A DNA stretch of 64,000 nt from Halorussus gelatinilyticus (GTDB lineage: Archaea; Halobacteriota; Halobacteria; Halobacteriales; Haladaptataceae): assembly GCF_023238445.1 (NCBI RefSeq), contig NZ_CP096658.1:1178001-1242000 (forward strand), given 5' to 3'. Shown piece by piece: positions 2,160 through 20,526 of this stretch (position 1 is its first letter; each line of letters starts with the position of its first letter). The position numbers and the translations under genes were made by a program. The notes under the pieces were generated by a model. The model saw only the letters and a list, made by a program, of their open reading frames with translations. It was not told where the DNA came from and did not search any database.

Positions 2160-2173
2160 CCGACTCCGGCCAA

Positions 2174-2181: not shown

Positions 2182-2205
2182 TGGTAGGCTTATTGTTGAC
2201 ATCTT

Positions 2206-2799
2206 ATGGACACACGTCACGTGGATCAGGTTCTCTGGAAATTTCTAACGAGGACCGACTACTCAGCAATGAACGGGCTGTACGCAGGTCAGGGAGGAGG
2301 GTCTGCCAAGCACATCACACTCCCTCCTTCGAAAAAAGAGGAGATTGCGGACTTCTTCGACGTATCCCCGTTCCCCCCTAGCGGACAGAAAGTAATTGAC
2401 AAAAATCTAAGGGTTGAACCCGTGGACGATGTCCCCGGGTCTGAAGGACCGATCAAGATCACCTGTAAATTGGACAGACGGGGTGGCGAATGGCGAATTG
2501 CAGATCAGGACCAAAATCGATACGTACTCTGGTCATCAGACTACGGTTTTCCGAGCCCAGATGAGATTCCGTGGGACGATGATGATTATTACGATATTGA
2601 TCCACCAATTATCTATTTTGTCAAAGACACATCTGGTAACTTCCATGCCCGGGCAGCGACTGATACCTCGCCAGAAACATTGAGGCGTTTCCCACCTGAG
2701 CTGGCACATCAGTGGGATTCGGCTGGAAAGCGTAATAACTTCGGAATTGTTAGATTCACGGACGTGACTTTGGAGGATGCATCAAATATCAATGAGTAG
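2206..2799 (+). CDS. unknown protein translationally coupled to McrB; possible recognition subunit
   Basis: I do not recognise this 197-residue acidic protein. Its N-terminus contains a glycine-rich GLYAGQGGGS segment and the middle has an aspartate cluster (about residues 125-133). There are no membrane segments and no obvious nuclease motif. Its stop lies 8 bases inside the start of mcrB, and it is the first gene after the operon's TATA box, so the three proteins are probably made together. The McrB that follows begins directly with its GTPase domain and lacks the usual N-terminal DNA-recognition domain. I therefore infer that this protein may supply recognition of modified DNA in trans. 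That role is a hypothesis only. Confidence 0.6.
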   Translation: MDTRHVDQVLWKFLTRTDYSAMNGLYAGQGGGSAKHITLPPSKKEEIADFFDVSPFPPSGQKVIDKNLRVEPVDDVPGSEGPIKITCKLDRRGGEWRIADQDQNRYVLWSSDYGFPSPDEIPWDDDDYYDIDPPIIYFVKDTSGNFHARAATDTSPETLRRFPPELAHQWDSAGKRNNFGIVRFTDVTLEDASNINE

Positions 2800-3964: not shown

Positions 3965-3972
3965 GACGAACA

Positions 3973-5244: not shown

Positions 5245-7864
5245 ACTCGTCAGAGAGCGATCGATAGACGTCCAGCACTTGTGACTTGTACTCGAACTCT
5301 CCATCTCCGCGACGGCGAAGTGCTCCGAAACTATTGATAATATGATTCACGTCAGTCTCTGTGAGCTCATAGAGGTGAAAGAAGAGCCCATCAAGCTCTG
5401 CCCGGAGTTCCGTTCTTCGTTCGGAATCCCAATCATAGGGCGTTGATTGGAAGCCAAGATCATCACCCCACGAATCCAGGTCATGGGCGGTGTATGTCAG
5501 CTCTGCCACTCGCTCGCTTATCCAGTCTACCATTGGCTCACCTCGAATCGTTTGCCCTCGATACACTTCTGGAGAGAGAACTGGCGTCTGCCTCACAATA
5601 TACCAGTTGAGGGTGACATTCCCAATCTTCTGACGGCACGCAAAGTCGTACGCCATTGAATTGAGATTCGTCAGCAAACATGCCACCTCTCTGGCGGGAC
5701 GAGAAGTAAGCAACAGGGGGAATTTGTTGCCCACCGCTGTATGGGGGAGAACAGAAGCAATCATAGTCCGAGAGTTCGTCGCGCTGGTAATATCCTTGAA
5801 CCCGATAAACCACTCATGTGGGTAATCACCTGGAGTTGCAGCATCAACGGACTCGGACGGGAGATAATACCGAGCATTCACGGTGAAATCGGGGTTGGAT
5901 AAGTTCGTCTCTTTGGTGGGCTCTTTCGTCCCAGATCGGAACAGGTTGCCGTCAGCGTCCTTCGCGTGAGATTTCCGATGATTGTACTGTCCCACCATAC
6001 GACCCTCATACAACCGCTTGTACGTCTCATCGCCCATGTTGATGTCGCCATTTCTCTCTCGTGTTCCGTCTGAAAGTTCATTGATTGAGATGAACTGATC
6101 TGAGTCTGTAGACATATCGAACATCCTCTTATACGTGACGCCCCACGGATTGGTGTTCTCCGCTTCTTCGTCTCCTTCCTCACCTACAAATATCGGTGAA
6201 ATATCGTGCTGCTTCTGAAGGATTTCGAGCGCTTTTCGTCCACGAACAAGAGGTGCAGTCTTTGTTATTGGATTCAACTGACCGATCTCATTCGGACTTA
6301 ACTTGACGTGTCTAGATTCATCATCGATATCGGATGGCTCATGGGCAAAGAAGACGTAATCAGCCTCTTTTGACGATGGTTCGTTTGAGAGCGTAAGCAG
6401 CGAGAACCTTGTCCGTCCGTCAACATCCTCAAAGAGTTTCTCTCGGTTTTCAAAGTCGTACAGGGAGACCAATTTACCTTGTGTCGTAAGATGCTCGAAG
6501 AAGTCACTGGTGTAGTAGTCCGTCGCAATCCCTGTGGGGACAATAAACGCACAGTAGCCGCTCTCTGAAATTATCTGCAACGAACGTTCGACGAACAAAC
6601 TATACAAGTTTAGCATTCCCACGTTGGTCCATTCGTAATCAACAGAATCCCGGATCTCGTCGGCGTATTTTTTTGCTTGGTCTCGTGCCTGTTGTAGGTC
6701 GGTTTGCACGCTCTCATACCGCTCTCCGGCGATTTGATCCCCTCGCTCTGCAGATGTGCCAACCTCTGCAAGCTTTGGCTGTCTCGCCGCAAGGAACTCT
6801 CTAGTCTGCACTTTAACCCGCTCCCAAGGTGGATTCGTCACTACGATATCAAACCCATCGTTCGAACTGAAGACCTGATCAAACTCCTGCCCCCAGTTAA
6901 TAGGACGTAGTTGCTCACGATAGGTGGTTCCGTTTTCGGCAGATTCTATACTTGAAAGACGTTGTTGTCTGACCGAACCTTGGAGAGAGTCTCCGACGAC
7001 GAATCGATCCGGGCTAGGACCCAGTTCCGAGGCGGCAAAACCGCCTTCAGCCCAGAGAACCGCCAAACAAGCTTCTCGGGAGAGCCGGTTAGCATCTGCC
7101 CCATAAAATGCATTTTCTACGATGAGCTGGTTGGCCTCGGTTAGATCATCCGAATCGGGGTCACTAGACCCCGCGATTGATGTTGCAATAACAGGTGCTA
7201 GCACCTCAAGAACACCAAGTAGCATACTGCCGGATCCACAGGCTGGATCCACAATACTTAATGACGAAACTACGTTTCCTATGTCCTCAGCATCAACACG
7301 TTCGAAATCATCCATACCGCCCGGCCAGCAATTATGTTCTTGGCATCGTTCTCGGACCTTCCGTTCGGTAGCTGGCCTAACAGCTCGTTTTGCTAACTCA
7401 ATCGGTGTGAGATATGTCCCAGAGACTCTTCGATCGTCATTAGCTGATTCATAGTGCAGTTCGTCTACGTCGGGATTAGGTTGGTACTCAGTGAACGATT
7501 CCAGAGCATTGCTGATTGGATCAAATGCGTTTGGCTCTTTGGATTCCCAATTGTTGGTATGAGCAGAAAGTACCTGCTCAACAGGTAAACTAGTAGCGTC
7601 AATCGAACCCGTACGGAAGAGTGGATTTAGAGCATGTTTCTTATTCGACAGCGCAGCGTCTCTGAGGTCAATCCATGTTGTATAGGGATCTACACCCTGC
7701 TGTGTAGCGTGTGTAACGCTAACTATTGATTGAAGCGTAACTCGTTTACAGTCTTGCTCGATCGACTCGAAACTCTGTTCACCATCGCCAACCTGATCGA
7801 TGGCGGACGCTACATACGTGGAGAGTGCATCAACCGCAGGAGGGAGATTTTTGCTTTCTACCAT
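5198..7864 (-). CDS. large Eco57I-like class I DNA adenine methyltransferase
   Basis: This 888-residue protein carries motif I as VDPACGSGS (about residues 205-213) and the catalytic motif IV NPPW in FDIVVTNPPWERVK near residue 345, which together indicate an N6-adenine methyltransferase of the Eco57I/N6_Mtase kind. A GTYLTP motif precedes motif I, as in type I, BREX and type IIG methylases. The C-terminal half is probably the target-recognition region and includes FKDITSATNSRTMIASVLP, a pattern seen in this family. No PD-(D/E)XK nuclease motif is seen in the N-terminal 150 residues, so it looks like a methylase only. It converges on mcrC with a 47-base overlap. Confidence 0.85.
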   Translation of the reverse strand: MVESKNLPPAVDALSTYVASAIDQVGDGEQSFESIEQDCKRVTLQSIVSVTHATQQGVDPYTTWIDLRDAALSNKKHALNPLFRTGSIDATSLPVEQVLSAHTNNWESKEPNAFDPISNALESFTEYQPNPDVDELHYESANDDRRVSGTYLTPIELAKRAVRPATERKVRERCQEHNCWPGGMDDFERVDAEDIGNVVSSLSIVDPACGSGSMLLGVLEVLAPVIATSIAGSSDPDSDDLTEANQLIVENAFYGADANRLSREACLAVLWAEGGFAASELGPSPDRFVVGDSLQGSVRQQRLSSIESAENGTTYREQLRPINWGQEFDQVFSSNDGFDIVVTNPPWERVKVQTREFLAARQPKLAEVGTSAERGDQIAGERYESVQTDLQQARDQAKKYADEIRDSVDYEWTNVGMLNLYSLFVERSLQIISESGYCAFIVPTGIATDYYTSDFFEHLTTQGKLVSLYDFENREKLFEDVDGRTRFSLLTLSNEPSSKEADYVFFAHEPSDIDDESRHVKLSPNEIGQLNPITKTAPLVRGRKALEILQKQHDISPIFVGEEGDEEAENTNPWGVTYKRMFDMSTDSDQFISINELSDGTRERNGDINMGDETYKRLYEGRMVGQYNHRKSHAKDADGNLFRSGTKEPTKETNLSNPDFTVNARYYLPSESVDAATPGDYPHEWFIGFKDITSATNSRTMIASVLPHTAVGNKFPLLLTSRPAREVACLLTNLNSMAYDFACRQKIGNVTLNWYIVRQTPVLSPEVYRGQTIRGEPMVDWISERVAELTYTAHDLDSWGDDLGFQSTPYDWDSERRTELRAELDGLFFHLYELTETDVNHIINSFGALRRRGDGEFEYKSQVLDVYRSLSDEFSREQSNESLSVSTR

Positions 7865-7935
7865 ATGTGACGTGGGGTCTGCTCTGGAATATCTTAGACG
7901 TAGATTCGGCTAAAAGGTATGGATTATTGGAAAGC

Positions 7936-8020
7936 AGTGGTGAGGTCTCATACCACTAACCCGAATACCCGGCCACCACGCCGGGTCCGATCAGGCGTCC
8001 CTCGGCCACCACACCGAGGG
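7936..8020. repeat. three consecutive hairpins
   Basis: Hairpin one pairs AGTGGT (7936-7941) with ACCACT (7952-7957), with an inner GAG/CTC. Hairpin two pairs ACCCGGC (7967-7973) with GCCGGGT (7980-7986). Hairpin three pairs CCCTCGG (7999-8005) with CCGAGGG (8014-8020). The last two display the shared loop-side word GGCCACCAC. Such regular structure is unusual for a spacer and suggests a structured RNA or a protein-binding array. Confidence 0.55.
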
Positions 8021-8260
8021 ATTCACTCTCTCTTTTGGGAACTGGTTCACATGGCTGATCGACCAGCATGCGTCGACGTCTCCCTACATACTTCAATGCA
8101 TGCAAATCTCTTGATGTAGATTTGATCTGTTGAAATCCCATTCTTTAGTTATCTTCTCATCTGAAACGACTTGTCGCTGAATATTACGAACTGACCGCGA
8201 GCATTCGCGTGAGCGGAGCGAGCGCGATTCTGCCTTTTTCACCATGTTTTTCGAGGATTC

Positions 8261-8338
8261 GTGTTACGCGCGTAACACCGAAACACTCTGGAATCACTGT
8301 CGCCCGTTCCCGCCCGCTCTCCCGATCGTAACACCGAA
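8261..8338. repeat. 18-base palindrome and repeated 12-mer
   Basis: GTGTTACGCGCGTAACAC at 8261-8278 is a perfect palindrome. Its right half continues into CGTAACACCGAA (8271-8282), which recurs exactly at 8327-8338 beside the stop of the HEPN gene. This could be an operator or a termination signal. Confidence 0.5.
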
Positions 8339-8339
8339 C

Positions 8340-9965
8340 TCACCGTTTCTCATCATCGGGTATCGTGGCGTTCCCGCCCATCGGCAGGACAGTCCCGTCA
8401 ATTTCTTCTCGCTTCATCCGTTCCTCTTCTGCTAACGCGAACGTCGTGTACAGCAGCGCTGCGCGAGCTAATCGCAGCATTTCCACCGTCACCTCTCGCA
8501 ACTCTTTCTCACCGACCGGGTAGTACTGCGTGTCTTGCAACCAACTTCTGTCCGGGGGTTCGGACACGATCCCATCACGGTACACTTTAAGATAGTCGTG
8601 CTCGATCGCATTCCGGAGGTCTCGGAGTTCATGCGCGACCACAACCGGCGACTCGTCGTCGTTCTGCCCGGAGTCTTCATGGAAATCTTTCCTGAGCCAG
8701 AACAACGCGTTCAACGCCCAGTTATCCGAGTCCACGAACTGTTCTTCTAACCCCTTACTGTAGTGCCCACGGTTGTACCATACTGACCGGAATGACGGGT
8801 CGTCGTGTCCGAGATCGTAGTACTCGTTGATGATGACGGCGATTTTATCGAATACGGAGTACGCCGTTCGGAACGCGGATTTGATTTGCTCGGTTCGGTA
8901 CCCGTACACGGAGTAATCGAGCGTATCTTGCAGCGTGACATTCCTATCAGAGGAATGCCCGACTGATCTCATCCACCCTTCATAATACATGTACCGCGCG
9001 GACACGAACTCCTGTTTGATCTGGTTGAATACACCGGGATACGGAAATTCCTCTCCATCGGGCATGATCATTCCCGGGAGTGTGACAGGGTCGTGCGCGA
9101 CGAATGAGTGCATTGAGATATCGTTCAACGGGTTCAGGTACAACCGGTTGTTGAGCACCCACTCGTGGTACTTGACGTCGAATTTCCCGTCACCGAGCTC
9201 GTACTCGTCTTCAGTTTCGATCGTTAACTGGTCGTCGGCGAACTGTTCGATAGACTCCATCCCGGCTCGGAATCGTGTCTTGGCTTGCGGGTACACGTCG
9301 TCAGCGTTCTGCAACGCGGCTTCGTAATCGGTGTACGCTGAGTGGAGGATCCGGGCGGCGTACGATTGTGACGGTACCAGGCTAGCGTAGTACTGTTTCG
9401 TGATTGCGCGTTTGCCGAGCGCCATGCCGTGTTCCGGATTGATTTCAACGGCTTTGTGATGCCAGTGCAGTGCTTCGCATACCCTTCCGGTTCTGGCGAG
9501 GTACCCGGCGAAATTCGTGTACCGTTGGAGTTGTTGTGTGGGTGTGACGTCGGTGTCGTATTCGTCGCTGACGCTAGCTCTGGCATGCCCGATCGCGTTT
9601 AACAGGTCGGTAGATTCGAAGAACGTGTGTTGCGTATCGTCGCCGGTGACGGTGTGTCGGAGCGAGTACGCGTTCGCTAATTGGTAGTGTCGAATCGCTT
9701 CGTGTGCCGGTGACAAGGCGTCAGTGTCGGGGAACGTTTCGGTGTGCAATTCGATGATGCGATCTAACCCGTCTTGCCGTTGCAGGTCTTCCGACAGGTT
9801 GTACAGCACGCCGGTGAGGTGTAGTCGCGTTTCATCGTGGAGCTCCGCCCAGTCTGCATCGTCTGCGTTGACGAGGGTAGTGTACGCGGCGTCTGGATTC
9901 TCGATACCACGGTTCACGTGGATGTGTTCGGAAAGGTCCTGAAGATTATCTGGGACGTCAGGCAT
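8340..9965 (-). CDS. TPR-HEPN protein, LA2681-like; probable RNase defence protein
   Basis: The 541-residue protein has an alpha-helical N-terminal half with a recognisable TPR-like repeat (GRVCEALHWHHKAVEINPEHGMALGKRA) and a C-terminal HEPN domain with the R-x4-H motif RNAIEH at residues 451-456. The order TPR then HEPN, and the sequence around the motif, resemble the LA2681-like HEPN family. HEPN domains with an intact R-x4-H are commonly metal-independent RNases used in toxin-antitoxin, abortive-infection and other defence systems. Its location among McrBC and methyltransferase genes supports a defence role, which remains an inference. No antitoxin-like partner is evident next to it. Confidence 0.75.
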   Translation of the reverse strand: MPDVPDNLQDLSEHIHVNRGIENPDAAYTTLVNADDADWAELHDETRLHLTGVLYNLSEDLQRQDGLDRIIELHTETFPDTDALSPAHEAIRHYQLANAYSLRHTVTGDDTQHTFFESTDLLNAIGHARASVSDEYDTDVTPTQQLQRYTNFAGYLARTGRVCEALHWHHKAVEINPEHGMALGKRAITKQYYASLVPSQSYAARILHSAYTDYEAALQNADDVYPQAKTRFRAGMESIEQFADDQLTIETEDEYELGDGKFDVKYHEWVLNNRLYLNPLNDISMHSFVAHDPVTLPGMIMPDGEEFPYPGVFNQIKQEFVSARYMYYEGWMRSVGHSSDRNVTLQDTLDYSVYGYRTEQIKSAFRTAYSVFDKIAVIINEYYDLGHDDPSFRSVWYNRGHYSKGLEEQFVDSDNWALNALFWLRKDFHEDSGQNDDESPVVVAHELRDLRNAIEHDYLKVYRDGIVSEPPDRSWLQDTQYYPVGEKELREVTVEMLRLARAALLYTTFALAEEERMKREEIDGTVLPMGGNATIPDDEKR

Positions 9966-10134
9966 GGTGTAGTCTCACGGTGCAGTGAACGTGAGCTTTC
10001 GGCATATTGAAGCGCTATTTTTAGATACAACTTTGGATGAAACAGTCTGTCGATAGAGACTGCGAACTGTATCAGAGGATGTTCTCCTTCTGAAGCGACA
10101 CGTACATGGGCGATAAACTGGTTTGAGAATCCAA

Positions 10135-10782
10135 TCAACCCCCAAGGATATAGGCAGATCCAGGCACGCTGCTTGGAAGTTTCAATTCAACTTTGTCTTT
10201 TGTTATTCTGGTACCCACAGTCAACTGGTTGAATTCAGGGACAAATCTGCCAACCTCTACAGGACCATACTTCTGTAGGGCATCGTCAAATGCATCTGGT
10301 GAATGAGCAGGGGTGTATTTTCCAGGGACAACACAAACTACGTGACAGAATTTTCCTGTCCCAAGAATAACATCGAGCTTTCGGTATAATGCTGCCAATC
10401 TGCTTCGGTAGTAGATCTCGAAAACGACTGGTTCCGGTTCCTCGATATATACATCAGCGGTCATCGAGCCATTGCCTTTGGTGATTTGCGATTCGATTTG
10501 AACGGAATCTCGATTGTACCCCAGCTGATTACAGGCCGTTTTGATTGCGAGTTCACATCCCATTTGATGGACGACTGAAGTCTGTGCTCGGCTGAAGCAG
10601 TCGTCTTGGTCCCCATCGGTGTGAAGGAATTGTCGGTGGGTGTCAGCATGTCTGTCGAATACTACCTCCTCAGCACAGAGTAGGCAATGATAAGTGTCAT
10701 CATCTGTGTAACGTGACTCTGGATCCATTACCTCGGAGCCATCAACCAACTGCTCGCTTGGTGTGTGTATCGCTATGAACAT
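10135..10782 (-). CDS. zinc-finger protein with possible CoiA-like nuclease fold
   Basis: The 215-residue protein starts, in my reading, at the ATG at 10782, nine bases after the upstream gene's stop; the frame is open further upstream but would overlap that gene. Residues 30-55 contain a C-x2-C plus two histidines (CLLC then HADTHRQFLH), likely a zinc finger. Later, ADVYIEEPEPVVFEIYYRS resembles the D-x(n)-E-x-[QY]-x-S pattern of CoiA-type restriction-like nucleases. This match is by eye and weak. The tight spacing after the RNase H-fold gene suggests the two are made together and may act on the same nucleic acid. Confidence 0.5.
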   Translation of the reverse strand: MFIAIHTPSEQLVDGSEVMDPESRYTDDDTYHCLLCAEEVVFDRHADTHRQFLHTDGDQDDCFSRAQTSVVHQMGCELAIKTACNQLGYNRDSVQIESQITKGNGSMTADVYIEEPEPVVFEIYYRSRLAALYRKLDVILGTGKFCHVVCVVPGKYTPAHSPDAFDDALQKYGPVEVGRFVPEFNQLTVGTRITKDKVELKLPSSVPGSAYILGG

Positions 10783-10790
10783 GAGTTGGA

Positions 10791-11441
10791 TTACTGGATA
10801 TCCGGTGGTGCAAGGTTTTTCATCGAAAAGTCGGATCTCGGAACATATCTTCCGGCGAGCTCGGCGAGTTCCCTTGTACGCTCGATATCGGCCAAGTTGT
10901 GCCTGAGCAGTGGTGCCCATTCTGCCTGCTCAAATGCTGTAACAGCGGCTTTACTATCGTCGAATGGATCATAGCTTACATCACCAATGAGCATGTCGTA
11001 AACTCCTACCAAGTCGCGCACATCGTTTGTGTCGAAACGACTGATCGCATCCATCATGTCGGCGTAGGGAATTTCGCGGAATGGCCATGGAATATCGTTC
11101 CGGAGACATGCAGATCTAAGAAATGGAAGGTCAAATCCACCCTTCCAAACTTCTCCATTGTAGGCCGTCAAATAGTGCATGTCGCCATCAATAGCTTCAT
11201 CAACGAATTGTGCAAGGGTCTGTAGTAGCACCTCTTCGTTATCAACGACTCTGAGTTCAGTCGATTTGTTTGTATACTGACCCAGCTCATCTCTAAGGAG
11301 ACCACGATCAGCAGGGCGACTTTGAGTGTTGAGAACCAACCAATTCCGAAGTTGGTGTGAGAATCCTGCAACAGTCACTACAGATCCCTCTTGAAGTCCT
11401 GACGTCTCAATATCGAAGGCGACTGGTGCGAGATCTCCCAT
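10791..11441 (-). CDS. RNase H-fold (DEDD-type) nuclease
   Basis: This 216-residue protein contains the exonuclease motifs of the DEDD superfamily. Exo I is AFDIETSGL with D10 and E12, Exo II is in YNGEVWKGGFDLPFL, and Exo III is HNLADIERT. It resembles the YprB/PolB-exonuclease-like ribonuclease H-like domain, which degrades DNA or RNA from the 3' end. It has no accompanying polymerase domain. It is followed after eight bases by the zinc-finger protein gene at 10135-10782, and the two probably form an operon within the element. Its substrate cannot be read from the sequence. Confidence 0.75.
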   Translation of the reverse strand: MGDLAPVAFDIETSGLQEGSVVTVAGFSHQLRNWLVLNTQSRPADRGLLRDELGQYTNKSTELRVVDNEEVLLQTLAQFVDEAIDGDMHYLTAYNGEVWKGGFDLPFLRSACLRNDIPWPFREIPYADMMDAISRFDTNDVRDLVGVYDMLIGDVSYDPFDDSKAAVTAFEQAEWAPLLRHNLADIERTRELAELAGRYVPRSDFSMKNLAPPDIQ

Positions 11442-11662
11442 ACCGATCTATACACCATCCACTAACATAATTGTCTGCAAACCCGAGTGAAAGTGGTTCT
11501 AAGACGTTCTACCCGAACATTCAAATTCATCCGGGCTTGGATAAGTCTGACTTCTATTCCGAATTCTGGGAAGCTCACTAATCATACCGCCAATAACAGC
11601 ATTTCCGAGTGATTTGGTCGAACGTTTAGGAGTTGGATTACAGAAGGTGAAAGTAATGTCTT

Positions 11663-11944
11663 CTACTGGCTGTCATCAAACGGTACTAAGTCCCGATGGC
11701 GAAACGATATTGGGAGATCTTCGTCTGACTCTATGTTCAGAAGAATATATGAGTATGAATCTGTGTTCCGTTTGGTTTCTGTACCAAGGTCATCTGTGAA
11801 GACTTCAAGGACCTCACAAATCATGTTATTATACTTGGAGTCTGGATCGGCAGACTCGATGTATATCTGTACTTTTTCTCCAACAGAGTATGGCTCACTT
11901 GCAGGCTGGGGAATATCTTCCATTGGTTCGTGTTGACCAGCCAA
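11663..11944 (-). CDS. small conserved haloarchaeal protein of unknown function
   Basis: This 93-residue acidic protein has a pattern typical of a small beta-barrel: PYSVGEKVQIYI near the start, then an acidic stretch and a conserved end, PISFRHRDLVPFDD. I recall similar short proteins scattered in haloarchaeal genomes, with no known role. It stands alone between gene-free stretches of about 220 and 250 bases. An SH3/KOW-like fold is my guess from the spacing of glycine and hydrophobic residues. Confidence 0.6.
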   Translation of the reverse strand: MAGQHEPMEDIPQPASEPYSVGEKVQIYIESADPDSKYNNMICEVLEVFTDDLGTETKRNTDSYSYILLNIESDEDLPISFRHRDLVPFDDSQ

Positions 11945-12195
11945 GCTGCATCAGTCCTTTGTGAAATGTCCGTGAAGTTGAGAACCTCCCCAGCTGATCA
12001 ACGATGAGGTAATACGATGGCTGAGTAGCCGAAACCGTTTAGAGCGGCTTTTCGAACACCGAATTCCGTACTCCACGAGACTCCCCTTATCCTATCACTC
12101 TTCGGACTCGGACACGGTTCTCCTCAGATGAGATAACGCTAGAATACATACAACTGCTACATTCTACGGGCGAGACCCGTTTCTGAATCTTGTTG

Positions 12196-12957
12196 TCACT
12201 CGTGATAGTAGCATACACTATCCGGAAAGAACACTGTGCGACGGCAGAGATCGCTCGCTGTAGCTTCTTCACCGCAATGATACGTCGGGTTTTCATGCTG
12301 TTCTGAAAGGATGAAATACCGCTGAGTCAGGGAGCGTCCTTGGTGTGTGTCTGGGAAGCCCATAACTTGGCGGATAATGTTTCCCTTGAATCCCTTCTCG
12401 GCTAGTATCTTTCCGAACGTCATCCGCAGATTTGCCCCCGAGATGGTCTTGTCGCTACCGGCGCGCTTCCCAATATTCTCCAACCGATGGTTCACCGTTG
12501 CGGGCGTACAGACTCGATCGTGTGTGGCGAAGTATGTCTCTATGAAGTCAGCGAACTCCGGTTCAGGTACTGGCACTCGTCGTGGTTGGAGTGTGCCGTT
12601 CAGCGACCAATATCCGTCTCTCAGGTGCTTGCAGTCTCTACATGGGTGGCCGCCGCCGCTGGTCGTTCGTCCTTTCCGTCCGGGACTCACGGTACACTCG
12701 GTACGATCACCCGGGACACGGACGAAGAGACGACTGCCGTCCCACTCCAGCCACTCCGAAGTCATGTGAGCGAATGTCCCAGGCTTCAAACCGGTCAAGA
12801 GGAGCCCTTCGCCTAGAAGACGGTCTTTGTGGTCTCCGTCTCGGCTAGCTTTCCTGAACGCATTGACGCCGTCGTCTGTGAGCGGGAGCGACTGTCTGCC
12901 TGGGTAAACCTTCAGCTGACGGTCACTGAGGTTCTCAGGAGGGTCACCACTTATCAT
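12196..12957 (-). CDS. degenerate tyrosine-recombinase-like protein
   Basis: This 253-residue protein is a paralogue of the recombinase encoded just upstream (12944-13642), with a similar layout including a C-x2-C pair (HPCRDC) in an inserted loop. However, the catalytic positions are altered. The first arginine region reads LTGLKPGTFAHM, the HxxR box reads NLR, and the next histidine is replaced in GFPD. A late tyrosine (RYFILSE) remains. I take the ATG at 12957; in-frame ATGs at 12960 and 12966 are alternatives. The start overlaps the upstream stop by about 14 bases, implying coupled translation. It may be an inactive partner or DNA-binding regulator of the active paralogue. Confidence 0.65.
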   Translation of the reverse strand: MISGDPPENLSDRQLKVYPGRQSLPLTDDGVNAFRKASRDGDHKDRLLGEGLLLTGLKPGTFAHMTSEWLEWDGSRLFVRVPGDRTECTVSPGRKGRTTSGGGHPCRDCKHLRDGYWSLNGTLQPRRVPVPEPEFADFIETYFATHDRVCTPATVNHRLENIGKRAGSDKTISGANLRMTFGKILAEKGFKGNIIRQVMGFPDTHQGRSLTQRYFILSEQHENPTYHCGEEATASDLCRRTVFFPDSVCYYHE

Positions 12958-13642
12958 CATACTCATCCTGGACGTCCTCCCCAGCGAACTTGATGTACTT
13001 AATCGCTTCTTCGAGGTTCGCATGTCCCATGAGCGCCTTGATTTTGTGAGGGCCGAAGTCTTTTTTCGCCAGAAGCGTGCCGTACGTATCACGGAGATCG
13101 TGGGCGACCACCCGCCGTTCGAACCCCGCCCGTTCGGCGATACTCTTTACGCGGTTAGTGATCGTCCCCTGTGCCGCGACATTTTCGTAGAGGTCGAAGT
13201 AGCTGTTCAGGATATGAATGGTGTCATCATCGCGGACGGGGATCGGTCGGACACCTGCCTCGGACTTTGGCGTAAAGTCCGCACCTGCCGGTGCCCAGTA
13301 CTTCTCTGCCCGGTTTCGGCAGTGGAAGCACGGAACACCAGTCGGATTCGTGTCACCCCCGCTTCCGTTTCCGGATCCGAGTGTGCACACCTCCCCATAG
13401 GGAATTTCGACGTGAGGACGCTCGTTCGGCCCGTTACACCACCATGATGGCGTCATATGTGCCATTGCGGCGGCACGGATTCCAGTTGAGGTAAGTGTTA
13501 GACCAATGAGCTCATCGAGGACGTCGCCGTCCTTAGCAGCCTCTCGAAACCGGATATACTGTGACTTTGGGGCCGGTCTGAACGTCCCGGTCTTATCACG
13601 ATCGCCTGAGAGTCCTAACGGATTGTATGTCATTCCTGGCAT
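12944..13642 (-). CDS. small tyrosine recombinase with zinc-binding insertion
   Basis: The 232-residue protein has the residues of a tyrosine recombinase catalytic domain: R56 in TGIRAAAM, H181 and R184 in HDLRDTYG, H207 in MGHANL and the nucleophile candidate Y216. Between the first arginine and the HxxR box it carries C86 and C105-x2-C108, a likely zinc-binding loop. It is shorter than standard integrases, so a full core-binding N-terminal domain is missing or very reduced. It precedes, with an overlapping start, a degenerate paralogue. Its role could be resolution, inversion or integration; the main integrase of the element is probably the one at 17046. Confidence 0.7.
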   Translation of the reverse strand: MPGMTYNPLGLSGDRDKTGTFRPAPKSQYIRFREAAKDGDVLDELIGLTLTSTGIRAAAMAHMTPSWWCNGPNERPHVEIPYGEVCTLGSGNGSGGDTNPTGVPCFHCRNRAEKYWAPAGADFTPKSEAGVRPIPVRDDDTIHILNSYFDLYENVAAQGTITNRVKSIAERAGFERRVVAHDLRDTYGTLLAKKDFGPHKIKALMGHANLEEAIKYIKFAGEDVQDEYDDKW

Positions 13643-14084
13643 GTTGGTAAAGTTACTTCACAGGGCCAATGCCATAAATGATTGCAAAGTTATCCCGCTA
13701 ACCGGATATTCTCAAACTCTTAGCGGTAGTTACTATGCAGTAAACACGTAACTCCAGCGAAAATGGCCGTTTTGTCATATTCACAGTGTGCAGCGTAGAT
13801 TCACAGCACGACCATATCGGGGTTAAGGATTCGGTGTCTCCCGGGATATCTTATCGCGCACCCGGTGCTTCACAGGGTGAAAATGGGCAAAGGGTCTTGT
13901 TGCACTCCGGATTTAGCAATCGGGAGGTTGTCATACAACGGTTCTTCTGGCCGTTCTTTGCTACCCTGATTCGCTCAGTACAGTCAAAGTACTGAATAGG
14001 ACCTTGACAGCAAATTCTTATTCGAGATGCGTGGCCCTCGCAGGGCGTATTCACTCCGATGGGGCAAACACTTCCTGTGAGGAG
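13643..14084. other. 442-base gene-free stretch
   Basis: The stretch lies between the recombinase pair and the winged-helix regulator, both on the minus strand. No gene with credible composition or start signal was found. The segment around 13890-14020 looks unlike its surroundings and might be a decayed insertion-sequence end, but I found no matching inverted repeats. Confidence 0.4.
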
Positions 14085-14474
14085 TTATTCTTGATTGAGA
14101 TCGGCTTCTAACTTGACGATCTCAGTATCAAGCTCGTCTTCGTCGATGTCCTTCAGTTGGAAGTCGTCTCTGTTGGTGTGCTTGTCGTCGAACATCGTCT
14201 CTAGCTGGTTGAGGCTCCCGACGTACCGGCGAAGGTCATCTCGGTGATCAAGCGCGTGATAGTTCCTGCCCTCGGTTTTCCCGATCAGTCCGTCGTTGTT
14301 GAGTCGAGTGAGAGTCGCTGTGACCGTCGTGTGTGGAATGTCGAGCCGATCTTGAATACCGTCGGTACTGAACCTATTGCCTGGGTTGCCGTAGAGGACC
14401 GCTACGATGTCGGATTTCGCAGTCCCTGGTGTAAGATCGATATCTGCGTCGTGTGTGTCCGAGGGATCTGGCAT
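14085..14474 (-). CDS. winged helix-turn-helix transcriptional regulator
   Basis: This 129-residue protein has a MarR/ArsR-like winged helix at about residues 20-75: TAKSDIVAVLYGNPGNRFSTDGIQDRLDI is split here as helix 1 and helix 2, followed by a recognition helix and the wing LNNDGLIGKTEGRNYHAL. The C-terminal 50 residues are acidic and helical, probably for dimerisation. It presumably controls genes of the element, such as replication or the recombinases. It is a single gene with gene-free DNA on both sides. Confidence 0.75.
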   Translation of the reverse strand: MPDPSDTHDADIDLTPGTAKSDIVAVLYGNPGNRFSTDGIQDRLDIPHTTVTATLTRLNNDGLIGKTEGRNYHALDHRDDLRRYVGSLNQLETMFDDKHTNRDDFQLKDIDEDELDTEIVKLEADLNQE

Positions 14475-14886
14475 GGGCTGTAGTCAATTGTACGACATGG
14501 TGTAGTAACTGGTTTTCGACCATTTTTATTGGGATTCCTCACGGACGATGTTCCCGACATTCATTTTCCTCAATCATAGTCTTGCAGCCCACAATGACAA
14601 CGACTGAGAAACTCGCAGATGGACTGAGCAGAATCCTCACCCCAAGTGGCCCTGAAAACAACTCCCTTGTGAACTGTTCTATGATACCCTATAATCGGCG
14701 TTGACCGGGGCCATTCACTTATAAGGGAACATCAACAATGGAATTTTGATAACCGCTAGGTGGTGTCTAGATAGATTGGTGACTTGGTCGTGGGAGGTCC
14801 GTATAAGTTTGAATACTAAGCCGTGTTCCACACTACGACTGTGTCTTACCGAGTGTATTTACGTATGAGGTTTATTATATCAGAGT
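14475..14886. other. 412-base gene-free stretch with possible promoters
   Basis: The stretch separates the minus-strand regulator from the plus-strand AbrB-like gene, so promoters for both directions should lie here. TTTATTATAT at 14871-14880 is close to the AbrB-like start. A 36-codon open frame at 14594-14704 has no supporting signal, so I did not call it. Confidence 0.4.
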
Positions 14887-15060
14887 ATGGGTGATGAGTC
14901 AGTGACCTCAACGAGTATTACCATAGAGGTTAGTCCTCCAAAGTATCAGGCGACCATTGATAAGCAAGCTCGGAAAGCCCTCGGTGTTGAAGGAAAGGAG
15001 TCTGTGCTCCAAGCTGATCTGACGTTAAAGAGGGTCCTCAGTGAAGGAGGTGACAACTAA
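14887..15060 (+). CDS. AbrB/SpoVT-like small DNA-binding protein
   Basis: This 57-residue protein shows the swapped-hairpin AbrB pattern: an ITIEV strand, then KYQATIDKQARKALG, which fits the family form of a basic residue, Q/T-TI, then R-x-x-LG. A final strand is LQADLTLKRVL. Such proteins are transcription regulators or antitoxins. It sits upstream of the replication gene, on the same strand, and could regulate copy number or replication. It is very short but the motif is clear. The frame uses ATG at 14887 shortly after an AT-rich stretch. Confidence 0.65.
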   Translation: MGDESVTSTSITIEVSPPKYQATIDKQARKALGVEGKESVLQADLTLKRVLSEGGDN

Positions 15061-15087
15061 ACCTGTCACTAGGTTCGGCGAGGAACC

Positions 15088-15107
15088 GGGGGCGTTGGCC
15101 CGCCCCC
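15088..15107. repeat. GC-rich hairpin upstream of rep
   Basis: GGGGGCG (15088-15094) pairs perfectly with CGCCCCC (15101-15107) across a six-base loop, between the AbrB-like gene and rep. It could terminate the small gene or be part of a rolling-circle origin. Confidence 0.45.
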
Positions 15108-15229
15108 AGAACACGGACTCACGTGGATCACGGTGTGGTCCTTGGCTGGTTCTTCGTCAACAGGCGCAATAGGACTTTCGTCCGATGCGACCTGGTGCCC
15201 CTTAGTAGTAACTTGGGAGGTGATGAGCG

Positions 15230-16834
15230 GTGAGTGTCGATAATTTTGATGGTGACGGAACAGGGAGCCAACCATCAATCATCTACGCCTTTGATGGTGG
15301 AGACGAAATCCGCGAACTCTCCCGTTCGGGCTATGGCGAACCTGGCCCGTCACCGGGTGATATTATTGAACGAGAATCTACCCGCTCAAACCCCACGGAA
15401 TGTTTACCAGAACTTGAACTCCCTGGTAGCCGTGGCCTCAAAGAGGACGACTGCGGAGAAGAGATTCCTGTCTTTGCATGTAATCAATGTGGAAAGCCAA
15501 AATATCTCGGTCGCTGTTGCGCTTCACCAGTTTGTGAGCGGGATTGGCCTGCAGCGGTCAAAAAGAAAGCAGTCCGCCTAGCCGGAAAACTAGATGCATT
15601 GCGGCGTAAAGTCTATGCTAGCTATGATGGGAAGAAGAACGTCGATTTCAACCACGTTGTGGCTTCGCTGCCTGATTTCCTCGTTGACTCTCAAAATCCG
15701 ATGCAACGGGCTTACCTAGTACTGAAAACACTCCTCGAAGAGAACTGGCAGGTTGATGGGTTCGGGGCAGTCTATCACCCATATCGGATTAAGAAGGAAT
15801 ACAGAAAGGATCAGTACGAACACGGTGGGAAAGAAGGTAATGGAGATATGACCTGGTCTGATGTCTTGTCAAGTGACGACCCTCTGGAGTATGTGAAGTA
15901 CTCCCCACACTTTCACCTCTTTTTCCCTGCAGTCCGGAAGTCGTTCGATTATCTGGTTGCTGAAGCTGTTGCTAACCAGTCTGGTTGGGTCTTCCACCGG
16001 ATCACCCAAGGGAACGACAGCAACATCTCAGTGGAAGATTTGGAAGGTCTTGTTCATCAGGTGACCTATGCTTTCTCACACGCTGGTGTTAATGAGTGGT
16101 CGGCTGACCGTGCTGAGCTCACTAGCGTGATGAAGGGAGATTTACATAATATGAGTGTCTCTGATGAAATACACGCTGAGTGTCTGTCTCACTTCTGTGA
16201 GGCTGCACCGAACCTACTGGGGACACAGTTCGCCGATCTTGACGAGGCTACCTGTGATGCAGAAATTGCTGGAAGTCCTCCTAAGGAGGATCAACGTACA
16301 GTCAACAGTGAAGGTGCGTCTGACGAGACAGATTCTGAATCGCCGTCTGCACAGGAGAGTGAGGGTGTCAGAGACTCTGAAAGGTCGGTGAAAGAAGAGA
16401 ACTGCGATGAAGAAGGCGAGACTTCATCCACTGATAGTAGTGTTGGCTCCTCGGAATCAAGTGAAACGAACCTGACGTCTGCACGGGACAGAGACACCCA
16501 CACTTCGAGCAATGATACGTCATCTGCAGCGTCGTCAGATTCCTCCCCTCAACAAACACCCATGGAACCCACTCCAGATGATGCGAAAGGTGTTCGTGAT
16601 GATTCACCAGAGCATCCTTTTGTAGATCATAGGGTACAATGTGAGGGTGAACTGGTGCCCATACGGGAAGCCGCGGAGCTGCTTGATGATAGCGAGTGGT
16701 GTGCGAAAGCACCTCATGTTTCTGGCTTGCGTACAGCTGTCAAAGAGTGGAGCCGGCGAACTAATGGGGAGGATCACTTGAGGTGGGTCAATTCGGGACA
16801 GGATCGTTCTCCAGCGGTGATTCAGCTCTACTGA
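15230..16834 (+). CDS. HUH-type rolling-circle replication initiator (Rep)
   Basis: The 534-residue protein begins with GTG, six bases after a strong GGAGGTGA ribosome-binding sequence. A cysteine-rich segment around residues 84-100 (CNQC then CCASPVC) is a likely zinc finger. The HUH metal motif is H227-F-H229 in YSPHFHLFF, and Y280 in VTYAFSHAG is a candidate for the nicking tyrosine. This layout matches Rep proteins of haloarchaeal plasmids and some haloviruses, which nick the origin and attach covalently to DNA. Residues about 345-450 form a long serine/aspartate-rich low-complexity linker before a conserved C-terminal segment. A replication gene within an integrated element implies a circular replicating stage. 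Confidence 0.75.
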   Translation: MSVDNFDGDGTGSQPSIIYAFDGGDEIRELSRSGYGEPGPSPGDIIERESTRSNPTECLPELELPGSRGLKEDDCGEEIPVFACNQCGKPKYLGRCCASPVCERDWPAAVKKKAVRLAGKLDALRRKVYASYDGKKNVDFNHVVASLPDFLVDSQNPMQRAYLVLKTLLEENWQVDGFGAVYHPYRIKKEYRKDQYEHGGKEGNGDMTWSDVLSSDDPLEYVKYSPHFHLFFPAVRKSFDYLVAEAVANQSGWVFHRITQGNDSNISVEDLEGLVHQVTYAFSHAGVNEWSADRAELTSVMKGDLHNMSVSDEIHAECLSHFCEAAPNLLGTQFADLDEATCDAEIAGSPPKEDQRTVNSEGASDETDSESPSAQESEGVRDSERSVKEENCDEEGETSSTDSSVGSSESSETNLTSARDRDTHTSSNDTSSAASSDSSPQQTPMEPTPDDAKGVRDDSPEHPFVDHRVQCEGELVPIREAAELLDDSEWCAKAPHVSGLRTAVKEWSRRTNGEDHLRWVNSGQDRSPAVIQLY

Positions 16835-16961
16835 CTCTCACTTGACCAGAGGCATCACTATCCTGAACAATATGAGCCGCTAAATAGGAACCTGAAGACC
16901 CGGTCTGATGGTGTGATAGTCCAGAATGGTATTACGGTCAGATGCCTTTCGGGTTTTGGTT

Positions 16962-16977
16962 GGGGGTTGTCGCAATA
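16962..16977 (+). repeat. 16-base subterminal direct repeat, right copy
   Basis: GGGGGTTGTCGCAATA is identical to 932-947. It lies about 130 bases after the rep stop and about 70 bases beyond the integrase stop. It may be a Rep, integrase or second-recombinase site. Confidence 0.6.
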
Positions 16978-17045
16978 ACAATTGAATCTATAATTACCCA
17001 CCCACCATGTGTTAGATGACCGGTGGACCTCTCGGTGTCTGAAGT

Positions 17046-18101
17046 TTAATCTGGGCCATACTGATGGAGGTGATCCAACCCTGCTCGTGGGTCGTCTTCG
17101 ACGTAAGTCTCCTCTGTTACTTTTATTGAAGAATGCCCCATCAACTTTGAAACTTCCCAGAGTCCAGCATCGGTCTCATTAACCATGTGAGTCCCAAATC
17201 CATGTCTGATGCTGTGAGCAGTTACCAACCATCGATTTGGGATCTTGTCTCCGTTATCGTCGGTCGGTGCATTGGCATCTGCGTATATTTTCCGATTGAT
17301 ACCAGCTTTATCAGCTGCTTGAATGGCGATCTCGTTAATTCGATCACCCGATAGTGGAGCGCCCTTCTCACCGACCAAAAGTCGCTCGTGGTTTGTTGTG
17401 GCTGCTTTTTCGTCCCTGTAGCCGTGTTCTAACCATTCGGTCAACAAGCCATCAAGTGAATGTTGATAAGCTACTACTCGCTTCTTATCGTTCTTGGCTA
17501 CTGGCTCACGTACCGTGATTTCTCTTGTCTCTTGGTCAATATCACTAATTAATAAGTCTGAGGCCTCTCCTCTCCGCATTCCAGTTTGCCAGAGGAGCCT
17601 AATGATGAGTTGATCCCGAATCCGGTTTCTCCCAACATTTTCCTCCATCTGTCTGATCTCGTCTTGTGAAAGAGCGTATGTTTCCTCTTCTTCTAATTGA
17701 CTGGATTGCTCCGAGCTTTTCGAAAACCCGAATATTTCGTCCTTTTCGTTATTCCACCTCTCGAAGGGATTTGATTCAGACAGATCCATCCTAACCAACC
17801 AGTCGTGAAATGCGTGGATCCTGTCCCACCGATATAGATCAGTTGTTCCATTAAACTTCGCAGCCAACGCTTGGCCAGTTGCGTTGGCTTGTCCGGGTGT
17901 CACGTCAGCCGGTGATTCAACTTCAATCTCATCCAGCCAGTGGTCGTACCATCGGAGATCCTGCTTGTAACGTCTGGTGCTTCCTTGGTCCCGGAGGTCC
18001 GGATCATCGTCGTCTGTCCCCGTTTCTAACTGTCCGATGTACTGTCTGATTGCGTTCCGACAGTCTTCTACGGACTTATATCGTGGAGGCAACTCAGGCA
18101 C
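17046..18101 (-). CDS. int: tyrosine recombinase/integrase of the element
   Basis: The 351-residue protein has an N-terminal core-binding domain (about residues 1-130) and a catalytic domain with R176 in TGMRRGEA, H296 and R299 in AHSIRHGFG, H323 in MGHSS and nucleophile Y333. I chose GTG at 18101, which overlaps the accessory gene's stop in the eight bases GTGCCTGA; ATG at 18176 would overlap much more. The gene is the last of a two-gene operon lying just inside the right attachment site, the usual place for the integrase that catalysed insertion. Gene order recalls pleolipovirus SNJ2-type integrases, which travel with small accessory genes. Its inferred target is the ferredoxin 3' end. Confidence 0.88.
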   Translation of the reverse strand: MPELPPRYKSVEDCRNAIRQYIGQLETGTDDDDPDLRDQGSTRRYKQDLRWYDHWLDEIEVESPADVTPGQANATGQALAAKFNGTTDLYRWDRIHAFHDWLVRMDLSESNPFERWNNEKDEIFGFSKSSEQSSQLEEEETYALSQDEIRQMEENVGRNRIRDQLIIRLLWQTGMRRGEASDLLISDIDQETREITVREPVAKNDKKRVVAYQHSLDGLLTEWLEHGYRDEKAATTNHERLLVGEKGAPLSGDRINEIAIQAADKAGINRKIYADANAPTDDNGDKIPNRWLVTAHSIRHGFGTHMVNETDAGLWEVSKLMGHSSIKVTEETYVEDDPRAGLDHLHQYGPD

Positions 18102-18801
18102 CCGATTCTTTGTAATATCGACGGACTGTACTTTTATCCTGGTTTTCTTCGCCTGACCCTGCTGATAGTGATTCATCCCCGACAGACACCCTAGGTGAGG
18201 AATCAGATGTGGAATCTGTATGACTTGATGACTCCCCAATCGACAAATTGTCGTGTCTTGGGATATCTGCCTCTGCCTCTTCGGTTGTATCTTCAACGAA
18301 TCCTACATCAGGATAGTACTCCAACATTCGTGCACAGGCCCGCCTGACATCGGCGAGATCTTCGTCGAAATACTGTGCCCACACCTCCGGTGTTGAAATA
18401 GCTTGGGCTAAGGCTAGATCACTTGGCGTGTCGAATTGACCGACCTCATCGAAATCCGGCAGGTCATTTCCTGTGGAATGAACCGGCAGTGAAGAATAAA
18501 GGTCACGTGCTAACCGGTCAATTTTATCGTCATTTGTGACGCTCGAATCAATAGATAGCACATGTTCTTCAATCCGATCAAGCCGTTCTTCAAGTGGTGT
18601 GACTGACGTATCCACAGCACGGATAATCTCGTCCTGATCGACTGTCGCCTCTTCATCCCCGCTGTTCATATATCGATACGCTGTAACCCGGAAAAGGCGG
18701 CTTAGGCTATCGAATTCATTCTCTTCTCGTATGAACTCATCAAATTCCTCTCTCTCCTCCGGGGTGAGACGGATACCAACGATCTCACTTCGATCTGTCA
18801 T
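18094..18801 (-). CDS. integrase-associated protein with ribbon-helix-helix-like N-terminus
   Basis: This 235-residue acidic protein starts 56 bases inside the right attachment site. Its N-terminus (IVGIRLTPEEREEFDEFI) fits a ribbon-helix-helix DNA-binding domain. A coiled-coil-like segment follows at about residues 65-90, and the C-terminal 60 residues are serine/aspartate-rich and probably disordered. It overlaps the integrase start by eight bases, so the two are translationally coupled. It may direct integration versus excision or repress the operon by binding near the attachment site. That role is inferred from position. Confidence 0.65.
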   Translation of the reverse strand: MTDRSEIVGIRLTPEEREEFDEFIREENEFDSLSRLFRVTAYRYMNSGDEEATVDQDEIIRAVDTSVTPLEERLDRIEEHVLSIDSSVTNDDKIDRLARDLYSSLPVHSTGNDLPDFDEVGQFDTPSDLALAQAISTPEVWAQYFDEDLADVRRACARMLEYYPDVGFVEDTTEEAEADIPRHDNLSIGESSSHTDSTSDSSPRVSVGDESLSAGSGEENQDKSTVRRYYKESGA

Positions 18802-18856
18802 CGTACTCTGGATTATGAACAGGACTGTGTTAAACGCTTGTATTACATCAAAAGGG

Positions 18857-18873
18857 AGAACCGCGTCATTTAA
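18857..18873 (+). repeat. attR candidate
   Basis: AGAACCGCGTCAT followed by TTAA repeats the last codons of the ferredoxin gene, with one synonymous difference (ATT for ATC). It marks the element's right end; chromosomal sequence resumes after it. Confidence 0.8.
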
Positions 18874-18880
18874 CTACGCT

Positions 18881-18899
18881 GTGGACACGCCGCGTCCAC
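18881..18899 (+). terminator. possible original ferredoxin terminator hairpin
   Basis: GTGGAC (18881-18886) pairs with GTCCAC (18894-18899), a few bases after the duplicated stop codon. Before integration it would have lain directly downstream of the ferredoxin gene. The stem is short and no strong U-run follows. Confidence 0.3.
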
Positions 18900-19062
18900 G
18901 AATCCAGCCACCAGACTAGACATTTTTCACCGAGTCGCCCGATACCGGACGGTGAAGTACGTCTACCTTCGGTCGTGTAGTTTCCTGGGACTGTCGAGAG
19001 AACCATCGTCCGCTTCGTCGAACGGGTGACCGTTCGGCGATTTGCTCGATACGTGGTGCGAA

Positions 19063-20526
19063 TTATTCAGTTGTCCGCCGTGTCTCGGTTACGTTCTCGA
19101 ACTCAAACCGTGCCCCGCCAGCGGCACTCTCCGTCACCGAACACTCCCACCCGTATACGTCCGCCATCTCTTGGACAAACGTCAGTCCTAATCCCATCCC
19201 TCCTTCACTTTGCGAGGACGTGTAACCCGTCTCGAACACGGTCTTCTGTTCGTCCGGTTCGATACCACAACCGTCGTCGGCCACGTAGAAGCCAGTCGAA
19301 AGGTCCCCGACCGTGACGGTGACGCTGGCCCCGCCATGCTCCACGGCGTTCTCGAACAGATTCCGAAACAGATGGCGGATGTACGTCTCGTCCACGTCTA
19401 TCGTCCGGTCGGTCGTCACGTCCAGCGTCGCCTCGGACGTGTCCGCCTCGTCCCACGCTTGTCTCGCCGCATCCGCAAGTTGCACCGTCGAACACTCGGA
19501 GACTGCCTCTCGTCCCCGTGCCACGAGTAACAGGACCTCGATCAAGTCTTCGATGCGGTCGAACGCTTCCGTGACGTACTCTACTGCTTGTGGCTGTTCC
19601 CCACGGGGGAGCTGTTGACTATAAATTTGGCCGATGTTGACCGGGTTCCGAAGTTCGTGTGCGAGGAGACTCGCAAAATTATCCAGTTGCTCGTTCTGAC
19701 GTTCGAGCTGGCGTTCACGCTCGTTGCGCTCGGTCACGTCGCGCACGACACCGACCGTATCGGGGGTGGTGTCCTCCGACTCTGGAAGGGGTGCAACAGT
19801 CCATTCGACCTCGATTATCTCCCCAGACGCAGTTTGCAGCCTCGTCTCGTACATCTTCGAGTCGAACGTCTCTTCTGCGAGGTCGCGCTCCACCTCCTCG
19901 CGTAGTGCCGCTGCGTTCTCCTCCTCGGCCATGACGAACGAGGCGGGCGAGCCGACGAGTTCCTCGCGGTCGTACCCGACGAGTTCGGTGTAGGCGTCGT
20001 TCACCAGTATGAAGCGGTTGTCTTCGTTAGTAACGAAGATTCCGTCGTTGACGGTTTCGACGATGGTTTCGTAGCGTTCGAGTTGTTGGCTGTACTCTTC
20101 AGCGTCCACGGCTCGGGTTTGGGCCTGTCCATCGTGATACCCCATTCCGAGGCCGGCCACGCTGGCAAGTGCCGGGAGGATGAGGAAGTTCGCAAGCGGG
20201 TCGTTCAGTTCGGTGATGAACGAGATAAACAGGAGGATACCGACCATGACTTCGATGGCGCGGACACACCACCCGGCGACAACGTGGTAGAGGTCAGGAC
20301 GGATGTCGCTCGGTGAGAGCCGATAGCCACCGTAGGAGAGCGCGAGACCGCTTGCGCCGACGAGCAACGAAATCATCAGCACGTCGTTGATTGTTCTGTC
20401 GCCGACGGCTGGCGTGACGGGGAAACCGGCGGCAATGACGATGTAGAGTCCCCCAAGGGCGAGGACGACGCGCCGTCCACCGACCTGTTCAATCCCACGT
20501 GCCAAGTACCCCATTGCTGTCTCCAA
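19063..20526 (-). CDS. membrane PAS-domain sensor histidine kinase
   Basis: The 487-residue protein begins with about 140 residues holding four probable membrane helices. A PAS domain follows (about 155-265, from YETIVETVNDGIFVTNEDN to VGVVRDVTERNE). The dimerisation domain has the phosphoacceptor box LLAHELRNPVN. The ATPase domain has the N box FENAVEH, the G1 box VADDGCGI and the G2 box GGMGLGL. It should autophosphorylate in response to a ligand or redox/light signal sensed by PAS or membrane domains. No response regulator gene is adjacent, which is common in haloarchaea. ATGs at 20526 and 20514 are both possible. Confidence 0.9.
   Translation of the reverse strand: METAMGYLARGIEQVGGRRVVLALGGLYIVIAAGFPVTPAVGDRTINDVLMISLLVGASGLALSYGGYRLSPSDIRPDLYHVVAGWCVRAIEVMVGILLFISFITELNDPLANFLILPALASVAGLGMGYHDGQAQTRAVDAEEYSQQLERYETIVETVNDGIFVTNEDNRFILVNDAYTELVGYDREELVGSPASFVMAEEENAAALREEVERDLAEETFDSKMYETRLQTASGEIIEVEWTVAPLPESEDTTPDTVGVVRDVTERNERERQLERQNEQLDNFASLLAHELRNPVNIGQIYSQQLPRGEQPQAVEYVTEAFDRIEDLIEVLLLVARGREAVSECSTVQLADAARQAWDEADTSEATLDVTTDRTIDVDETYIRHLFRNLFENAVEHGGASVTVTVGDLSTGFYVADDGCGIEPDEQKTVFETGYTSSQSEGGMGLGLTFVQEMADVYGWECSVTESAAGGARFEFENVTETRRTTE

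Follow-up and report, generated by a model that had tools for sequence, protein, structure and literature searches.

An integrated element in the chromosome of Halorussus gelatinilyticus appears to be a rolling-circle plasmid whose replication origin is broken in two by its own integration. On balance we think it probable that this integrative plasmid, which encodes a Rep of the SNJ1-RepA/IS91-like type, has an origin made up of iterons and the site CTTATCCTGC, split when the element integrates and rejoined when it is excised. The element lies in a stretch of 64,000 nucleotides, here called the window, of a genome that consists of a single 3.67-Mb contig. The evidence, all at sequence level, comprises gene content and element ends, att repeats, a site and iterons found across the Rep family, a split layout seen in two genera, and Rep and integrase genes under selection. 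The features concerned are these (positions in the window):

684-700, plus strand: attL, whose 13-nt core AGAACCGCGTCAT (684-696) falls where the ferredoxin gene (287-700) has its 3' end restored.
928-952, plus strand: putative iteron 2, with its core GGGGGTTGTCGCAATA at 932-947, at the left end of the element; the iteron pattern is found in the family.
976-985, plus strand: candidate origin/nick site CTTATCCTGC, a family-wide site present once in the element.
1089-11944, no strand assigned: cargo, comprising a D12 methyltransferase, an AAA+McrBC pair, an Eco57I-type enzyme, a HEPN (HEPN_LA2681) protein and a DEDD/RNase H-like protein (Pfam, PADLOC).
14085-14474, minus strand: MarR-like winged-helix regulator (Pfam MarR_2, 8.9e-5, below cut-off).
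14887-15060, plus strand: small, possibly AbrB-like ORF upstream of rep, its position conserved in the sister species G013, in Halorubrum and in genomes G445 and G375.
15061-15229, plus strand: structured rep leader of 169 nt, recognised by folding and covariation, with a GC hairpin at 15088-15107.
15230-16834, plus strand: Rep, a predicted SNJ1-RepA/IS91-like HUH endonuclease (534-aa ORF, GTG start).
16962-16977, plus strand: putative iteron 1, GGGGGTTGTCGCAATA, about 130-135 nt past the rep stop, at the right end.
17046-18176, minus strand (frame open to 18296): tyrosine integrase (Pfam Phage_integrase, 2.6e-24).
18094-18801, minus strand: 235-aa protein adjoining int, with an N-terminus that by eye is ribbon-helix-helix-like.
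18857-18873, plus strand: attR, with the AGAACCGCGTCAT core at 18857-18869.

That the rep gene sits within an integrated element, as a first-pass annotation of this DNA had supposed, is borne out by both ends. AGAACCGCGTCAT occurs as an exact 13-nt direct repeat, at 684 and 18857, both copies of which are also present in G013, and the DNA so delimited (684-18869; 18.2 kb, unit length 18,173 bp) lies within the 3' end of the ferredoxin gene. GC content shifts close to both ends. The insert-free site can be seen in other congeners, where six of eight ferredoxin loci join the 21273-side chromosome to the ferredoxin side; no such join was seen at the other two (L025 and L031). The integrase gene is located just inside the right end of the element; for its 235-aa neighbour Pfam gave no support. 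A kinase-like ORF (PAS/histidine kinase by eye) at 19063-20526 on the minus strand, just beyond attR, is missing from this place in six relatives, and the site has therefore taken up more than one insert. With a tyrosine integrase, att repeats and a restored target gene, the element is by its sequence an integrative rolling-circle plasmid; it is bounded by integrase att repeats at a gene's 3' end rather than by the IS91-type ori/ter ends of a transposon that has no integrase. The cargo probably consists of restriction/defence-like genes, and HMM-based searches of nine cargo proteins (Pfam and PHROGs, ORFs of about 90 aa upward) found no virion families. Inside the cargo, at 12196-13642 on the minus strand, two tyrosine-recombinase-like ORFs that carry CxxC inserts overlap in tandem; they are separate from the element integrase.

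The rep gene is intact, and most of what had been proposed for its product on first inspection holds. The protein matches the RepA proteins of SNJ1 (28.1% identity, E 4e-13) and HJIV1 (26.1%) over residues 62-346 when phage records are searched with tblastn, and plasmid records yielded three further matches. Its HUH motif is PHFH (H227, H229), with Y280 lying within VTYAFSH: P226, H227 and H229 are invariant in all 24 aligned family members, and conservation of the tyrosine, put forward earlier as a test of the assignment, extends to 23 of them, the exception being G055, which has Asn. The zinc segment is likewise real, cysteines C84, C87, C97 and C102 being conserved in the same alignment (n=24), and the Pfam domain Zn_Tnp_IS91 (PF14319) is matched by 18 of the 24 members (best E 1.3e-4), the window Rep itself having no match to it. 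The acidic, serine-rich linker that had been noted spans residues 348-467 (120 residues), of which S, D, E and T make up 57.5%. A dN/dS of 0.135 relative to G013, falling to 0.059 for residues 1-350, indicates purifying selection. These data place the window Rep, on sequence grounds, in the SNJ1-RepA branch of IS91-related HUH endonucleases and predict that it is a nickase; replicons of this family are present in 19 of the 391 Halobacteria genomes sampled. They also agree with a published title that relates SNJ1 RepA to IS91, and the ICTV profile describes SNJ1 replication as rolling-circle and dependent on RepA.

Structural modelling adds a measure of support. AlphaFold predicted the full-length protein poorly (pLDDT 49.9); the model of residues 62-346 reached a pLDDT of 61.6 and a pTM of 0.70. 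The HUH fold is supported but not proven, because Foldseek returned no significant match to the latter model (none at E < 0.039), yet the best row of a VIA comparison was ORF119 of SIRV1 (Z 8.0, 115 of 116 residues aligned), which we take to be a rudiviral HUH Rep, followed by the Reps of AAV, parvovirus, geminivirus and pMV158 at Z 4-5.6, interspersed with unrelated rows. IS91 transposases were absent from the rows listed, and a search of PDB sequences gave no relevant match.

The earlier suggestion that the element replicates as a circle after excision thus stands in part. It is consistent with the rolling-circle Rep family, with the purifying selection and with close relatives whose contigs are probably small circles: G170 (terminal overlap of 89 nt), G164 (48-nt overlap) and G375 (period 4796). 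The accompanying likeness to a pleolipovirus is not supported: the Rep matches the RepA proteins of SNJ1 and HJIV1, neither Rep-Arvir (PF25227) nor any other pleolipovirus Rep family appears among the Pfam matches of the window Rep and 24 members, and no virion gene was found among the nine cargo proteins.

Between the small ORF and rep lies a leader that is conserved over its 169 nt in the window, G013, Halorubrum, G445 and G375. The hairpin first noticed in it is real, as judged from the folding of 15061-15229 (z = -3.1, with one of 200 shuffles equally good) and from covariation: an alignment of four loci gives 38 pairs, paired in 92.7% of cells, of which 12 are compensated, a count reached in none of 500 shuffles and falling to 1-3 pairs when columns are slid by 1-3, though the structure was taken from the alignment on which it is tested, so that the test favours it. 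The 20-mer of the window hairpin (15088-15107) is the exact reverse complement of its counterpart in G013 and Halorubrum, the orientation of the flanks being unchanged, in flip/flop fashion. A loop found in either orientation points to a hairpin that replicates or is prone to form a cruciform, and argues against strand-specific nicking within it. In SNJ1 and HJIV1 the leader is absent, because the gene preceding repA overlaps repA. The leader is more likely to be a regulatory element of rep (RNA control) or a single-strand origin than a nick site. As for the small ORF itself, the name AbrB-like is plausible but weak, since the window sequence has no Pfam match up to E 5 and the positional homologue in G445 matches MraZ (4e-4) and MazE (0.011) below their curated cut-offs. 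That homologue belongs to a decayed relative (G445:C27, L206) in which the AbrB-like ORF and the leader hairpin are retained but unrelated sequence takes over after Rep residue 143.

The origin had been sought in this leader, at 15061-15229; the site common to the family is found instead downstream of rep, which in the integrated element means at the far left end (976). In 14 of 19 relatives the 1 kb that follows rep contains CTTA[TC]CCTGC or CTCATCCTGC, on the rep strand in 11 and on the opposite strand in three (G183, G272, G299). Shuffled sequences averaged 0.08 (at most 2), the 1 kb upstream of rep gave none of 19, and the background was 6 in 1.10 Mb. The 19 relatives counted each have a complete Rep and 700 nt or more of downstream sequence, and none has an int cassette; the count leaves out three cassette-bearing elements, two loci with Rep at the contig end (G170, G440), G296 and IMGVR_2974636071 (no Rep ORF extracted or found), the remnants G445, G413 and G093, the fragments of G269:C11, the second Rep copy of G375, and the duplicates L036/L040, L004/L041 and L003/L038. 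Independent lineages are fewer than 14, about a dozen, because SNJ1/HJIV1 and G406/G279chr are close pairs. The strict site was not found in G196, G405, G261, G219 and N. zhouii, the last having it with one mismatch at +412; in G170 it appears when the sequence is read over the circular junction formed by the 89-nt overlap. Across 17 non-redundant sites (near-duplicates G013_left and IMGVR_2974636071 omitted) the ten positions are invariant bar two Y positions and one final C/T. CTTATCCTGC is thus probably the nick site, a reading that rests on this conservation.

Repeats stand ahead of the site. The family pattern is GGGGTT[CG]TCGCA[AT], repeated in front of CTYAYCCTGC: after the rep stop there are two copies in G009 (+225 and +382), two in G229 (+185 and +302) and three in G269 (+565, +655 and +758), and one each in G375, G406 and the chromosome of G279 (+138 to +180), an offset similar to that of iteron 1 in the window. 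In front of the site, iteron-like repeats number two in G009, two in G229, three in G269 and one in G375, against an expectation of 0.62 over all 19 loci. The shorter element [CGT]TCGCA lies upstream of the site, on its strand, at 11 of 17 loci (shuffle mean 1.7, maximum 6; other strand 1 of 17) and is missing from the remaining 6 of the 17 aligned origins. Iteron-type rolling-circle origins, that of pMV158 for example, are laid out in this way, with iterons followed by a conserved site. The GGGGTTGTCGCAAT repeats are accordingly read as probable iterons, putative Rep-binding sites, and the sequence forms GGGGTTGTCGCA and GGGGTTGTCGCAATA as putative Rep targets. Together the repeats and CTYAYCCTGC make a candidate origin-like module downstream of rep that was previously unlabelled. 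We found no description of it in open-licence papers, and we do not claim the SNJ1 origin as new; the SNJ1 replicon reportedly depends on cis elements located at either end of a 3.9-kb fragment, which would fit.

In the host genome the 14-nt core of GGGGGTTGTCGCAATA has only two copies, at 932 and 16962. Rarity by genome count carries little weight, since the iteron 14-mer and its reversed control are equally frequent (3 of 391 Halobacteria genomes each). A scan with an 18-mer found nothing; one of viral contigs with the 14-mer was dominated by chance matches, and its loci were reused only as base-rate background. Other roles for the 16-nt pair were considered and set aside: as integrase att sites, given that the int gene lies outside the pair and that the outer repeats at gene 3' ends fit in two genera; as the end of an IS or a chromosomal dif, given just two copies in the genome; and as a pure scar of cassette duplication, which the iteron arrays of relatives make unlikely.

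Iteron 1 thus stands beside rep and iteron 2, with the site, at the far end of the integrated element, so that the cassette of int, its neighbour and attP comes to lie between them. The same layout recurs in another genus. In Halorubrum sp. CBA1125 a 42-kb element is inserted at the 3' end of secY, bounded by att repeats of 22 nt, and follows the gene order of the window: the AbrB-like ORF and the rep leader come first, then rep itself and a repeat, then int, its neighbour and attR. The repeat is again present twice in direct orientation; the copy at 48934 lies 65 bp inside attL, and the one at 89142 separates rep from int. All 25 nt of window positions 928-952 match this rep-adjacent Halorubrum copy. 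In the window, G013 and Halorubrum the site is at the left end only. Drawn as circles, rep stop and site would be 2,315 nt apart in the window element and 2,069 in Halorubrum. The Reps are 67% identical, the integrases 30% over 188 aa, and the int neighbours unalignable, and it is this difference that marks the cassette between the iterons as the exchangeable unit. A large element in G291 (G291:C45:142000-181999; L204, L205) has a secY-like att, then the same repeat and the same left end, with the Rep end off the contig; here, as in the window and Halorubrum, CTTATCCTGC or a variant stands just right of the left-end repeat. It has cargo in common with the window (10172-11498 and 8000-8109). 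G375:C30 (L202), longer than one unit, is a probable 4.8-kb circular plasmid with one origin and a Rep 52% identical; at other places on it, inspection by eye suggests a gene of ribbon-helix-helix type and an integrase-like ORF. A search for distant plasmid DNA and a single-protein scan of viral contigs found nothing.

Comparison with G013 (L008) reveals two histories within the element. The cargo (650-13750) is near-identical, with two mismatches between 650 and 13665, whereas the left chromosomal flank differs by 3-10%, flanks and rep-int module together by 3-20%, and the rep-int module itself (14716-18976) is about 86% identical. On this pattern the cargo has been exchanged recently between the two Halorussus species at one site, separately from the rep-int module; the integrase, like Rep, has a low dN/dS (0.124), and the module has therefore been kept functional.

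We propose that Rep would bind the GGGGTTGTCGCAAT iterons and then nick at CTTATCCTGC. The attP-integrase cassette would sit between iterons 1 and 2 of the origin, so that integration places rep and iteron 1 on the right and iteron 2 and the nick site on the left; excision driven by Int would reunite rep and origin, bringing rep and the nick site to about 2.3 kb from each other. Rep could then nick, and rolling-circle replication would run into the cargo, in the direction leading away from rep. For the structured leader that precedes rep, the likeliest roles are control of how much Rep is made or that of a lagging-strand origin. The weakest point is that integration would keep replication off, because Rep acts in trans and an origin 14 kb away could fire while integrated.

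Four other readings were weighed against the split origin. The origin might be the hairpin region 15061-15229 itself, the left-end site being something else such as a promoter or terminator; this region is strongly structured, covaries over four loci and is kept beside rep in the window, G013, Halorubrum, G445 and G375. However, SNJ1 and HJIV1 do without it, the reverse-complemented 20-mer of G013 and Halorubrum is ill-suited to a strand-specific loop nick, and the site conserved family-wide stands elsewhere, all of which makes a hairpin origin distinctly unlikely. Alternatively, the iterons might be where Rep starts and stops, a 16-kb single-stranded circle of cargo and rep being released from the integrated copy without excision. 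Rolling-circle Reps do stop at a second copy of the origin, and in Halorussus and Halorubrum alike direct repeats flank cargo plus rep. Yet the right-hand repeat is not a complete origin, because CTTATCCTGC is missing there, and such a circle would lack int and attP; we regard release of this kind as unlikely.

A third possibility is that the repeats are the scar, or the recombination site, of integrase-cassette exchange rather than iterons bound by Rep. Homology between the window and Halorubrum indeed ends at the repeats on both sides, the cassette being wholly different, but G009, G229 and G269 have tandem repeats next to the site with no integrase seen between, and we hold this account to be distinctly improbable. 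Finally, the element could be a decayed, immobile remnant that no longer replicates. Its cargo (650-13750) has been exchanged apart from the rep-int module between two species, and decayed relatives exist in G445 and G413; against this, two species have an intact Rep and Int, both under purifying selection, and neither att copy is damaged, so that we consider a remnant very unlikely. The preferred reading is still an origin split by integration.

With its iterons and its CTYAYCCTGC site downstream of rep, the module gives the SNJ1-RepA replicon family a specific candidate for its origin. A broader interpretation, which we advance tentatively and think may well prove wrong, is that an attP placed inside a rolling-circle origin acts as a switch coupling replication to integration, and that the iteron-bounded cassette is exchangeable, swapping integrases and thereby targets (ferredoxin, secY). 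This suggests a physical means by which an integrated plasmid could hold replication off until excision, and hints at a route of integrase exchange among haloarchaeal elements; a review (PMC8371274) leaves open such exchange between HHPV3 and HHPV4. The proposal is worth testing since every step is accessible in standard haloarchaeal vectors and the candidate origin fits an existing vector system.

Among known systems, the closest in replication are SNJ1 and HJIV1 (Simuloviridae), whose RepA is homologous (26-28%, residues 62-346), with PHxH and YxxSH motifs, and whose CTYAYCCTGC site lies about 485 nt past rep. Both viruses are free, keep site and rep together on one side and lack the leader hairpin, whereas the window element is integrated, has no recognised virion genes and has its origin split by the int cassette. 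The Halorubrum element resembles it most in plan, sharing the order of AbrB-like ORF, leader, Rep, iteron, int and attR and the split repeats, and differs in an unrelated integrase, its target gene and its cargo. In SNJ2, with the Rep-Arvir replicons of betapleolipoviruses, the parallel is one of logic: PMC13107129 describes a replication operon restored only upon excision, and an origin downstream of rep. There, however, the Rep is unrelated (PF25227, Rep_trans-like), the target is a tRNA gene, and excision reassembles an operon, not an origin. With IS91 transposons the window element shares the zinc-binding domain (PF14319, as matched in its Rep family) and, by prediction, HUH chemistry, and is set apart from them by its tyrosine integrase and att repeats.
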